A DNA stretch of 64,000 nucleotides from a cyanobiont of Ornithocercus magnificus (GTDB lineage: Bacteria; Cyanobacteriota; Cyanobacteriia; PCC-6307; Cyanobiaceae): positions 806,001 to 870,000 of the forward strand of contig BIMP01000001.1 of the NCBI GenBank assembly GCA_007996965.1, read 5' to 3'. Positions 54,121-57,769 of this stretch are shown here, piece by piece. The notes under the pieces are model-generated. The model did not search any database. It had not been told where the DNA came from and saw only the letters and a list, made by a program, of their open reading frames with translations. The first letter of the stretch is position 1; the number at the start of each line of letters is the position of its first letter. The position numbers and the translations under genes were made by a program.

Positions 54121-54567
54121 CTAAGGCCCAACACAGATTAGCAGTGGAGGCAGAAGAATTAACAGGGCAATCACAATTGAACCGCTTGCTGCGACCAGTA
54201 CTGCAGCAGCAGCGCAGTCTTTAGCAATCCTAGCTAAGGAATGAAAGTGATGCCCAATTGTCAAGTCTACTGTAGCCTCAATTGCAGTATTGAGCAGCTC
54301 CAAAGCTAGAACCACAGTTGCCATTAGTGCAAGGATTGCTAAAGATACTGTGCTTAGGTGTAGCCAGAAACTGAGACTAAATACCAGAAATGTAATTAGG
54401 ACATGGATACGAAAATTTCTCTGGCTAACAAAACCATACACTAGCCCATGGATGGCGTAACGAAAACTAGCCGATAGATCGGATGCAGTCTTCCAAGATA
54501 CCTTTTGATCATTGCTTAGAAGCTCATCGGGGCTGTTGGACGCCTGCTTGGCAGTTTCACGAGGCAT
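54121..54567 (-). CDS. dgkA: Diacylglycerol/undecaprenol kinase family
   Basis: 148 residues with the DgkA fold: the catalytic stretch ELLNTAIEATVDL, the conserved KDCAAAAVLVAA, and three predicted transmembrane helices. In Gram-positive relatives it phosphorylates undecaprenol. An N-terminal hydrophilic extension of about 30 residues is present. Its start overlaps the end of ybeY by 11 bp, as in other cyanobacteria. Confidence 0.92.
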   Translation of the reverse strand: MPRETAKQASNSPDELLSNDQKVSWKTASDLSASFRYAIHGLVYGFVSQRNFRIHVLITFLVFSLSFWLHLSTVSLAILALMATVVLALELLNTAIEATVDLTIGHHFHSLARIAKDCAAAAVLVAASGSIVIALLILLPPLLICVGP

Positions 54568-55120
54568 CGTCGGATAAGTCTTTAATTAGTCCACAGGTAA
54601 TGCCACAGGTTTGAGTACTGCTGCTTCTTGCTAGTAGATATTCTTGGCACCGCAGCATATTAACTAAGCTGGCTTCGTCAAGATGATCCCAGCCAAGTAA
54701 ATGCAATAGGCCATGACTAACGAGCCAGCGTAGTTCCTGTCGCAGATCATGGCCTTGATCAGTTGCCTGTTTTATAGCTGTTGGAATTGACACAATAATA
54801 TCGCCCAGTTCTACAGGTTCTCCTGCTGGTAATGGGATTCCTCCCTGGTTTATTATGGGAAATGATAACACGTCGGTGGATGTATCTTGCTGTCGCCAGA
54901 TTTGGTTTAGCTGGGTGATGGTAATATCATCTGTGAACCGCAAGCTTAAACCAAGAACACTAGCAGGTTGAATTTTATCTGCGTAAGGCAGTAATGCTTT
55001 GCTGTGTAGAATAGTTAGCCATGTGCTCAACTGCTCTCTCCAGAAAGATATCTCTATGCAGTCAGTTTCTTCTACTGAAGCCTCTACCTCTAGCAAGAGA
55101 TCCAGTTCGAAGATATCCAT
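54557..55120 (-). CDS. ybeY: Endoribonuclease YbeY
   Basis: 187 residues; metal-dependent RNase for 16S rRNA maturation and ribosome quality control. The zinc-binding motif HGLLHLLGWDH is intact, with STDVLSFP and GDIIVSIPTA upstream. The C-terminal tail is longer than in E. coli YbeY. Overlaps dgkA. Confidence 0.95.
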   Translation of the reverse strand: MDIFELDLLLEVEASVEETDCIEISFWREQLSTWLTILHSKALLPYADKIQPASVLGLSLRFTDDITITQLNQIWRQQDTSTDVLSFPIINQGGIPLPAGEPVELGDIIVSIPTAIKQATDQGHDLRQELRWLVSHGLLHLLGWDHLDEASLVNMLRCQEYLLARSSSTQTCGITCGLIKDLSDDAS

Positions 55121-55129
55121 TACCTTGGT

Positions 55130-55306
55130 TTACTGAGGCAATGTAGGACGTCCGATCCAAGCCACAGCCAGGATAAAGCTAGCTAATCCAATAGCAGTTA
55201 GGCTTAGGTGAAATAGACTTTGACGACCCTTACGCACCATGTTGCGCATCGCTAGCTTGATAAAGCTGGGGGGTGCTGCTGCCCGCTTGTCGGTTTCGGT
55301 TTTCAT
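55130..55306 (-). CDS. DUF3285 small membrane protein
   Basis: 58 residues from the ATG at 55306 (MKTETDKRAAAPPSF); ATGs at 55333 and 55327 would lengthen it and nearly touch prfB. The signature SFIKLAMRNMVRKGRQSL is followed by one transmembrane helix (LTAIGLASFILAVAWIG). A cyanobacterial and plastid-lineage family of unknown function that is often found between prfB and ybeY, as here. Confidence 0.85.
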   Translation of the reverse strand: MKTETDKRAAAPPSFIKLAMRNMVRKGRQSLFHLSLTAIGLASFILAVAWIGRPTLPQ

Positions 55307-55336
55307 TAGTTTGCTCTCTAGTTTCATCAGCATAAC

Positions 55337-56462
55337 TCAATTATTTGTGTCTTCTAAGTAGTCCGCGCTATGATGCAAAAGTGCTTTTATAAAAGGATCG
55401 AGTTCACCGTTCATTACACTTTGTACATCGCTGGTTTCCTTCTGAGTTCGAAGATCCTTGACCATCTGATATGGGTGAAAGACATAGTTACGAATTTGGT
55501 TACCCCAAGCTGCCTCTACAGTATCACCACGGATATCTGCTATCTCTGCAGCTCGTTGTTCCTGAGCAATGACCAACAGCTTTGACTTTAGTAGAGCCAT
55601 AGCCTTCTCACGATTCTGAAGTTGTGAGCGCTCCTGCGTACAGCGAACTGCAATATTAGTTGGGATATGTAAGATCCGAACAGCAGTTTCTACCTTGTTA
55701 ACATTCTGACCTCCTGCTCCGCCAGAGCGGCTAGTAGTGATCTCTAGATCTTTATCTGGGATCTCCACATCTACCTCCTTTTCTAGCTTTGGCATAACCT
55801 CTACCCCAGCAAAACTAGTCTGTCGCTTATCGTTAGCATTAAAGGGCGAGATTCGTACGAGACGATGAGTGCCTTTCTCATTGCGAAGATAGCCATATGC
55901 ATAGCGTCCTTCGATTTCGATCGTTGCACTCTTAATGCCGGCCTCTTCACCCTCAGATAGCTCATCGACTGTGACCTTCATACCATGCCCTTTGGCCCAG
56001 CGGCTATACATGCGCAGCAGCATCTGCGCCCAATCTTGTGCATCTGTTCCACCAGCGCCAGCATTAACTGTAAGAACAGCACCTTCCCTATCATATTCGC
56101 CTTTCAGCAGTCTTTCCATCTCCCAACGATCGAGTTCCTGACGTAACCATGTCAGGCCAGAGCCAGCCTCGCCAAGGATCTCGCTATCCGTCTCTAGTTC
56201 GCAGAGCTCGAGAGTTGCTAGAGCATCTTCAACAGTGCGGTTCCAGCTAGTGAGCTGATCAAGCTGTGCTCTTACCTCATCTAGATGACGCATCTGTTTT
56301 TGTGCATTCTGCTGGTTATCCCAGAATTCCGGCTGTGCAGCCAGTTGCTCAAGATGTTTCTGGCGTGCGCTTAGTGCAGGAACGTCAAAGACAGTCCTGG
56401 GCATTGCCCAGGCGCTCGGTCAATTCAGAAAGATCACGCTTGAAATCGGTAAGGTCCAACAA
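55337..56462 (-). CDS. prfB: Peptide chain release factor 2, expressed by programmed +1 frameshift
   Basis: RF2 recognises UAA and UGA stops. The main frame (down to 55337) carries the SPF anticodon tripeptide ([13 protein letters not shown]) and the catalytic GGQ ([12 protein letters not shown]). The N-terminal 25 codons lie in the preceding frame, starting at TTG 56462 or 56459 ([19 protein letters not shown]) and ending at CTT TGA C. A +1 slip on CTT skips one T and joins ...AQDCL to DVPALS. The total is about 374 residues, normal for RF2. An in-frame TAG just upstream rules out an earlier start. The canonical autoregulatory logic applies: low RF2 favours the slip. Confidence 0.93.
56384..56390 (-). 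promoter_or_regulatory. RF2 programmed +1 frameshift site CTTTGAC
   Basis: On the minus strand, CTT TGA C is at 56390-56384: codon 25 of the upstream frame, then an in-frame TGA, then C. This is the same slip sequence as in most bacterial prfB genes. Upstream sits CAGGACTGT, giving an AGGA that may play the internal Shine-Dalgarno role. Confidence 0.9.
56396..56412 (-). repeat. Perfect hairpin directly upstream of the prfB frameshift site
   Basis: CCTGGGCAATGCCCAGG on the minus strand: 8-bp arms around a single base in DNA, or 7-bp GC-rich arms with an AAT loop in RNA. It ends 5 nt before the slip codon CTT, and its 3' arm includes the AGG of the internal Shine-Dalgarno-like sequence. Confidence 0.8.
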
Positions 56463-56544
56463 GGTTCTAGGTGTTCCGCTGACTAGACACTAGCAGTGAG
56501 ACCATTCTTTCATAAGATCCGCTCTGTTGGTTCTGGAGTCCATA

Positions 56545-56802
56545 GTGAACGTCGAGATTTACACTTGGAGCGCCTGCCCCTTCTGTATCCGGGCTAAGGC
56601 TCTGCTCGATCGTAAGGGTATCAGTTACGTCGAGTACATGCTGGACGGCGATGAGCAAGCTCGGGGCAATATGGCTGCTCGCGCTGATGGCTGTCGCAGT
56701 GTTCCTCAGATCTTCATCAACAATCTTCATGTTGGCGGTTGTGACGATCTGCATGCCATGGATTACAACGGGACGCTCGACAGTTTGCTTGGTGTGGTCT
56801 GA
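56545..56802 (+). CDS. grxC: Glutaredoxin 3 family
   Basis: 85 residues; dithiol glutaredoxin with the active site [14 protein letters not shown]. The TVP-like cis-Pro loop is SVPQIFINN and the GSH-binding GGCDDL follows. The GTG at 56545 has GGAG 6 nt upstream; the frame is open to 56527 without family support. gshB follows 4 bp later, so thiol-redox and glutathione synthesis are one unit. Confidence 0.94.
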
Positions 56803-56806
56803 GCAC

Positions 56807-57769
56807 ATGCATCAGCTCTTTATTTTAGATGCGCTCGCGTGCATAAATTCAGCGAGGGATTCCTCTGCAGCCCTAATGCAAGCTGCCTCTCGCGCCGGAT
56901 TTGAAGTCTGGATTTGTACCTTGGCAGATCTCTCTGTGCTTGGTGATCAGACCCACGTGCTGGCTGCGCCAGTAAAGCCTGAGCCGTGGATCAATGTGGG
57001 ACATCGGCAGAAATATAAGCTAAATATGTTCACCATTGTCTGGATGCGGAAAGATCCACCAGTCGATGATGCATATCTTTATGCTACCCATATCTTGGAG
57101 TTGGCGGAGAGAGTAGGAGTAAATGTTATCAATCGTCCTACTGCTCTGCGAGCTTGGAATGAGAAGGCTGGCGCTCTCCGGTTTCAACATTTAATGGTGC
57201 CTACCCTTGTAGCATCTCGTGTTAGTGATCTAGCAGCTTTTGCTCGCGACCAGGTTGACCTAGTACTGAAGCCTTTGGGAGGCCGAGCTGGACAAGGAGT
57301 AATACGCATTGATGCTAGATCTCCTGGTCTTGAGGCTCTGCTAGAACTGGTCACCGAGCAGGAGCGTCTACCTGTAATGGCACAGCAGTTCTTGCCAGCT
57401 GTTAGAGATGGCGATAAGCGAATTCTGCTTGTAGACGGTGAGCCACTTGGAGCTATTAACCGGCGTCCAGCAGCAGGAGAGTTCCGCAGTAACTTAGCAG
57501 TTGGCGGACAACCTGAACATTCTGATCTATCCACTCGAGAACTAGAGATTTGTGACTGTCTAGCCCCCGTGCTACGAGCAGAAGGACTTTTCTTTGTGGG
57601 AATTGATGTCATTGATGGCTATCTTAGTGAGATTAATGTCACTAGCCCAACTGGAATCAGAGAGGTAGAGCGACTGAGCGGTATTCCTCTTGCCGATCAA
57701 GTAATTGCAAGACTGCCAGGTGTGTCGAATCCTCTGTCATCTGGAACTACATGTTTCATTTCTAGTTGA
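56807..57769 (+). CDS. gshB: Glutathione synthetase
   Basis: 320 residues; an ATP-grasp enzyme joining gamma-glutamylcysteine to glycine. [47 protein letters not shown] and [15 protein letters not shown] are the family signatures. The start ATG is at 56807; the open frame back to 56651 lies on grxC. The last 15 residues or so (after ADQVIARL) run past the usual end and overlap the menF frame by 73 bp on the other strand. Confidence 0.95.

Follow-up and report, generated by a model that had tools for sequence, protein, structure and literature searches.

A conserved RNA hairpin apparently stands in place of the Shine-Dalgarno element at the prfB frameshift site of oxygenic cyanobacteria

The autoregulatory loop of prfB, the gene for RF2, is established in Escherichia coli. 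Its frameshift serves as the classic example of an internal Shine-Dalgarno (SD) element acting on elongating ribosomes, and a general review presents the prfB stimulator as an SD (PMC5009743). In the textbook arrangement an SD-like AGGGGG lies three bases before CTT of the slip sequence, and a 2025 survey of 12,753 genomes in mBio describes this element as 'hyper-conserved' (PMC12421855). Other stimulators have been described. In the work of Huang et al. 2018, an artificial 12-bp hairpin placed 5' of CUUUGA in an E. coli 70S system gave +1 shifting at ~60% of the level reached with an SD. This was seen only in the absence of RF2, and weakening of the stem lowered the effect; release of the E-site tRNA and a roadblock to backward movement are discussed there as modes of action of upstream duplexes (PMC6321510). 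In T4 gene 60, an mRNA stem on the exit side of the ribosome is proposed to pull the mRNA (PMC5009743). E. coli dnaX combines a hairpin with a slippery site in a cellular gene (PMC3711429, PMC6321510).

The cyanobacterial prfB genes analyzed here share several features with the E. coli type, namely the RF2 gene itself, a TGA after ~25 codons, the slip sequence CTT TGA C, a Tyr (or Cys) codon in the E site and the requirement for the +1 product (survey in PMC12421855). However, they lack AGGGGG or AGGAGG at -9..-4 and instead carry a conserved hairpin at -22..-6. Like the hairpin of Huang et al. 2018, it adjoins the E site 5' of CUUUGA on 70S ribosomes, but theirs is a designed, GC-rich 12-bp stem in E. 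coli extract, whereas this is a natural, class-wide stem of 7 bp (PMC6321510). The T4 stem, also on the exit side, drives long-gap bypassing and not a single-base shift in a regulatory loop (PMC5009743), and in dnaX the hairpin is downstream, an upstream SD helps and the direction is -1 (PMC3711429, PMC6321510). It is highly likely that the prfB +1 frameshift at CUU UGA C exists here as a class-wide variant in which an intramolecular hairpin replaces the SD:anti-SD helix as stimulator. If true, this is to our knowledge the first natural case of a 5' hairpin driving a cellular +1 frameshift.

The literature search did not extend to Baranov et al. 2002, reportedly the comparative paper most likely to have noted the absent SD; among the matches listed, no published hairpin at a cyanobacterial prfB was found. 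The main text of the survey, figures and supplements aside, contains no word beginning with cyanobact (PMC12421855), and the available parts of four further papers mention no such hairpin (PMC3711429, PMC10885494, PMC13245932, PMC5289835).

The prfB gene, its leader and its slip site

The window is a stretch of 64,000 nucleotides from the genome of a cyanobiont of Ornithocercus magnificus (1.88 Mb, 95.6% complete), and its minus strand encodes prfB (Table 1). The RF2 model TIGR00020 scores 474 bits against a cut-off of 370, PCRF and RF-1 domains are present, and the SPF and GGQ motifs can be read in the translation. Among records that carry a name, marine Synechococcus and Prochlorococcus match best. 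The gene is flanked (54121-57769) by divergent grxC (glutaredoxin)-gshB (glutathione synthetase) upstream and by DUF3285-ybeY-dgkA (diacylglycerol kinase) downstream.

Table 1. Features of the prfB locus in the window (positions in the window; RNA letters for the hairpin and the E-site codon)
Feature	Position	Strand	Basis
prfB leader, TTG start 56462-56460, 25 codons, in-frame TGA 56387-56385	56385..56462	-	ORF list; start aligned in 103 picocyanobacterial rows
RNA hairpin: 5' arm 56412-56406 CCUGGGC, loop 56405-56403 AAU, 3' arm 56402-56396 GCCCAGG	56396..56412	-	RNAalifold, codon nulls, pair counts
Five-base spacer, ending in E-site codon UGU (56393-56391)	56391..56395	-	E-site codon counts, n=224
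Slip sequence CTT TGA C (CTT 56390-56388, TGA 56387-56385)	56384..56390	-	CTTTGA in 224/224
RF2 body, +1 frame, first residues DVPALS	55337..56386	-	ORF list, TIGR00020, domains
Body-frame ATG inside hairpin; probable false start in simple gene calls; conservation lacking	56402..56404	-	

The leader frame ends in AQDCL at an early in-frame UGA within CUU UGA C, and the RF2 body lies in the +1 frame, in an ORF spanning 56404-55337. The minus strand reads GAC TGT CTT TGA C at the shift, and the +1 product would read AQDC-L-DVPALS across the junction. An earlier sequence-only reading had claimed a programmed +1 shift at CTTTGAC, with the first 25 codons in another frame and ending at the TGA within the slip sequence. 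The ORF list confirms this arrangement, and alignment to other prfB genes, the check that it had proposed, places the shift site in all loci compared: all 251 Cyanobacteriia loci in which the RF2 N-terminus was located have CTTTGA at the homologous position. That reading was mistaken in calling the leader an upstream cistron, as it is the N-terminal part of the same gene.

Removal of 27 repeat fetches and duplicates over -75..+75 leaves 224 distinct rows; L001 (RF1), L113 (16S) and L139 (no RF2 N-terminus) were dropped before the counts, and five further loci, L289-L293, stand outside the 224. The slip sequence is CTTTGAC in 221 rows, CTTTGAG in 2 and CTTTGAA in 1. The E-site codon is TAT in 108, TGT in 98, TGC in 13 and TAC in 5, so that UAU or UGU precedes the slip site in 206 of 224. 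In one genome (G042, locus L137) the prfB body switches frame beside the GGQ motif, possibly through a sequencing error or in a broken gene.

Start codons were compared in 103 picocyanobacterial rows (106 minus L074, L075 and L081, which are other cyanobacteria). The aligned codon is TTG in 61, GTG in 37, CTG in 2, CCG in 2 and CGC in 1, and from these counts the TTG start claimed by the earlier reading is typical for picocyanobacteria, with TTG or GTG in 98 of 103. The adjacent TTG at 56459 is disfavored, because the codon aligned with it is mostly no start (among others, CTC 35, CTG 18, CAA 16, ATA 10). A slip site of this form with a TTG or GTG start is a known kind of prfB frameshift.

The first start in the body frame is the ATG at 56404, close to where simple gene calls had been expected to begin RF2 too late. 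It is not a conserved alternative start, since just 69 of the 103 picocyanobacterial rows, and 85 of the 224 for the whole class, have ATG at this position, and internal initiation there, bypassing the frameshift, was rejected as a general mechanism on the same counts. Any ATG, GTG or TTG in the open body frame 5' of the slip site is found in only 128 of 224 rows. A Salmonella record (L275), in which the deposited prfB annotation begins after the frameshift, exemplifies the predicted late gene call.

The upstream hairpin and the absent Shine-Dalgarno element

Counted from the C of CTT, an inverted repeat pairs -22..-16 with -12..-6 to form a stem of 7 bp. The stem base at -6 leaves a 5-nt spacer before CTT that includes the 3 nt of the E-site codon, and the stem ends two bases behind that codon. 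A stable hairpin is thereby positioned just 5' of the E site at the shift site; the folding energy of the -25..-1 stretch is -13.4 kcal/mol in the window, with a median of -11.7 kcal/mol over the 224 rows. All seven pairs form in 201 of these Cyanobacteriia rows, six in 20, five in 2 and four in 1, which gives at least six of seven pairs in 221 of 224 distinct sequences. For a subset of 91 sequences with mutual identity below 80% over 150 nt, RNAalifold predicts exactly the hairpin helix and nothing else over 90 columns, and this alignment is gapless, so that the stem-to-slip distance shows no length change. Rfam 15 covariance models give no match at E up to 1 in window positions 55000-57000. 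Single-sequence folding was set aside as uninformative evidence on the hairpin: a 106-nt stretch of the window does not stand out (z -0.64), and in its minimum-energy fold the hairpin becomes part of a longer stem.

The sequence-only reading had called the slip sequence canonical. The rest of the site is not, as the SD-like stimulator is absent and a conserved hairpin, unseen by that reading, is present instead. At most 3 of 6 bases match AGGGGG or AGGAGG at -9..-4 in all 224 Cyanobacteriia rows. For the best duplex with the 16S tail, the median is -3.7 kcal/mol in Cyanobacteriia, compared with -10.0 kcal/mol in 20 loci outside the class and -10.4 kcal/mol for E. coli prfB. As AGGA is kept at -8..-5 in 217 of 224 rows, it may play a weak SD role.

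Some loci separate the two elements. In both L291 and L292, a G-C outer pair replaces C-G, all seven pairs form, AGGA is gone and the duplex is +1.2 kcal/mol. L290 also lacks AGGA, has the same duplex energy of +1.2 kcal/mol and keeps six pairs, as does L197 of the main set, which reads CAGCAC (six pairs, no AGGA, +1.2 kcal/mol). L105 lacks both AGGA and two pairs and does not discriminate between hairpin and SD. The loci L289-L293 come from five genomes that were missed by the search pattern described below but hold at least part of prfB; L293 is the C-terminal part alone. An ordinary SD at a different spacing was rejected as the main stimulator on the strength of the weak duplex and of the AGGA-less loci that keep their pairs.

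A natural control for the hairpin is found in genome G201 (locus L240), where a degenerate prfB duplicate that has lost GGQ and acquired an in-frame stop lies just upstream of the intact gene. The degenerate copy keeps CTTTGAC; its hairpin is absent, and the 25-nt stretch folds at -1.7 kcal/mol. The two slip sites of this locus are on its minus strand, at positions 277 and 1511 of the reverse complement.

Selection on pairing and phylogenetic range

Because the stem lies in coding sequence, pairing was tested against codon-aware nulls of 2000 trials each. When synonymous codons were exchanged between sequences within each column, which keeps the peptides and the codon make-up of the column, no trial reached the 201 fully paired rows observed (maximum 162). 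When codons were drawn from each gene's own usage, again no trial reached the observed 105 of 113 fully paired rows (maximum 29 of 113). Codon counts in 32 low-GC loci, which like the pairing counts come from related rows and are hence not independent events, have the same direction: the 5'-arm Leu codon is CTG in 32/32, against 42/1172 Leu codons in the same RF2 bodies, and within the hairpin CGC is used in 28/32 (bodies, 55/602) and CAG in 31/32 (bodies, 186/726). The codon null was also applied to 37 genes, taken from L003-L112 and almost exclusively picocyanobacterial, in 64 windows that span the leader plus ~590 nt at the start of the body. Only three windows depart from it, all over the hairpin, with mean z of -3.0 to -3.2; the next window is at -0.5.

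Changes on both sides of a pair were placed on a tree for which the hairpin itself was left out of the input sequence, with midpoint rooting and one arbitrary parsimony resolution. Counted for the stem pairs, they fall on 11 branches, and all run from Watson-Crick to Watson-Crick; pair -18/-10 changes on 6 branches (between GC and AT) and pair -16/-12 on 5 (between TA and CG). One-sided branches exceed double ones, at 31 versus 6 for -18/-10, where most are to or from G-U, and 34 versus 5 for -16/-12, where many break the pair. In the 91-sequence alignment, 96.4% of cells pair, versus at most 55.4% when the partner strand is slid by 1-3 columns, and 48 cells are doubly changed, versus 15.6 in shuffles; in the same sequences the shuffles are not exceeded for the number of pairs with a double change (241/500) or for pair types (500/500). 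Double changes affect two of the seven pairs, four vary on one side and one is invariant, and at -16/-12, which closes the loop, 15 of 91 rows are unpaired. A ranking of all 6786 column pairs by mutual information puts the two covarying stem pairs at 5 and 16. The pairs that rank higher, each of which includes a position outside the stem, probably reflect lineage signal separating picocyanobacteria from the rest, and the tree and codon nulls were relied on for this reason. These comparisons show that the hairpin is selected as a paired element.

The range of the hairpin was surveyed with the pattern CCTGRG-N5-CYCAGG-NN-TRY-CTTTGA, allowing at most 1 mismatch. It matches 377 of 388 Cyanobacteriia genomes, and the reversed control pattern has no match in the rows listed. 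In a second class of this phylum (the class of G189), none of 145 genomes, counted irrespective of prfB content, has a match. Eleven Cyanobacteriia genomes are missed, five of them without an RF2 gene at E 1e-60 and one with only the gene end; the five (G045, G068, G088, G384 and G410) probably reflect assembly gaps. A further missed genome, G089 (L226), forms six pairs, of which two are wobbles, while G257, G327 and G356 have 6, 7 and 7 pairs and G403 is weak.

Twenty loci outside Cyanobacteriia, chosen for spread and presumably from the non-photosynthetic Vampirovibrionia-like and Sericytochromatia-like groups, all contain CTTTGA. All 20 also have an SD-like element, with 4-6 of 6 SD positions matching and duplexes of -7.1 to -11.2 kcal/mol; four have AAGGAG, one base out of register. 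The cyanobacterial hairpin is absent in 20/20, with at most 5 of 7 positions able to pair, and three of these loci have other folds at -8.0 to -10.2 kcal/mol. Two loci, L255 (-9.1 kcal/mol) and L260 (-10.2 kcal/mol), combine a full SD with a self-folding 25-nt stretch whose pairs are unlike those of the cyanobacterial hairpin; an intermediate between SD and hairpin is possible, as is chance. Controls from other phyla comprise 13 of 40 listed plasmid records (50 matched; including an E. coli copy) and 1 phage-collection record. A credible slip site is present in 10 of these 14, with a duplex of -10.1 kcal/mol or better in 9 and a weaker one of -6.1 kcal/mol in Acetoanaerobium prfB; none of the 10 shift sites has the hairpin, and never more than 5 of 7 positions pair. 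A simple scan finds no credible shifted site in the remaining 4 records (2 none, 2 spurious).

The hairpin in the place of the SD is apparently general among oxygenic cyanobacteria. The simplest reading of this distribution is that the ancestor had an SD, which the hairpin replaced in the line leading to oxygenic cyanobacteria. Near or at the base of this group, an mRNA hairpin probably took over from the mRNA:rRNA helix as stimulator and has since been kept.

Proposed mechanism and alternative explanations

By analogy with the designed upstream hairpin, we infer that the cyanobacterial hairpin stimulates the +1 shift, and that it may do so by refolding. The ribosome would unwind the hairpin while translating the leader. 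Once CUU occupies the P site and UGA the A site, the stem could refold directly behind the E site, where the duplex would hinder backward movement and pull the mRNA on the exit side. At low RF2 levels, with slow decoding of UGA, slippage of the leucyl-tRNA from CUU onto UUU would then be favored; plentiful RF2 would lead to termination at UGA, so that the RF2 level would set the outcome as in E. coli. That the natural stem of 7 bp is shorter than the artificial 12-bp stem tested counts against this mechanism.

If the hairpin does act as stimulator, it would represent a second solution to RF2 autoregulation, and cyanobacterial RF2 control is predicted to be independent of the anti-SD. A class with slip site and hairpin but no SD would separate the possibility that any duplex behind the E site suffices from the possibility that rRNA pairing is special, and cyanobacterial prfB would offer a natural, genetically tractable system for testing such upstream-duplex ideas. 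Frameshift finders keyed to the SD motif may miss such sites.

Comparative data reveal selection on pairing and not its purpose, and the hairpin might be selected for another role, such as transcript stability, protein binding, upstream pausing or insulation of the slip site from misfolding, the last of which is a suggested role of an upstream stem in barley yellow dwarf virus (PMC5009743). This is unlikely, as the stem-to-slip distance is free of length change in the gapless 91-sequence alignment, the hairpin stands where the SD is lost and the degenerate copy in L240 lacks it. It is distinctly unlikely that the shift is an ordinary SD-stimulated one, in which the anti-SD binds AGGA at -8..-5 and the inverted repeat is a coincidence. 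The retention of AGGA in 217 of 224 rows, the CACCTCCT carried by the 16S tail of this genome and the preference for CAG over CAA in 31 of 32 low-GC loci all fit such a shift. However, the duplex of about -3.7 kcal/mol is far from the -10 kcal/mol of true SD sites, the AGGA-hiding hairpin is at -11.7 kcal/mol, and the AGGA register is one base off the textbook position. An SD also leaves unexplained why the codons CGC and CTG are conserved in the 5' arm. Moreover, the loci L197, L290, L291 and L292, which lack AGGA (duplex +1.2 kcal/mol each), keep 6, 6, 7 and 7 pairs.

The near-perfect inverted repeat could also be a palindrome at the DNA level, a protein site or repeat element that lies within prfB by chance. 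The element is fixed in codon register and in its distance to the slip site, and each matching genome has one pattern match, except for two each in G072 and G331, which makes this very improbable; the excess of G-U over A-C cells (33 versus 6, seven pairs in 91 sequences) fits base pairing within the mRNA, although part of this excess comes from coding constraint. A one-base sequencing error, or decay into a pseudogene, would produce just such a break at TGA, but the probability of an artefact is negligible and the idea is already refuted by conservation of the same site in 251 of 251 loci.

Weakened stems with the slip site kept occur in three loci from Prochlorococcus or the family of the window, L071 with 4 pairs, L105 with 5 and L289 with 5; L289, from the window's own family, folds at -4.8 kcal/mol. 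The hairpin may be dispensable in such Prochlorococcus-family loci, possibly reflecting an early loss of the stimulator.
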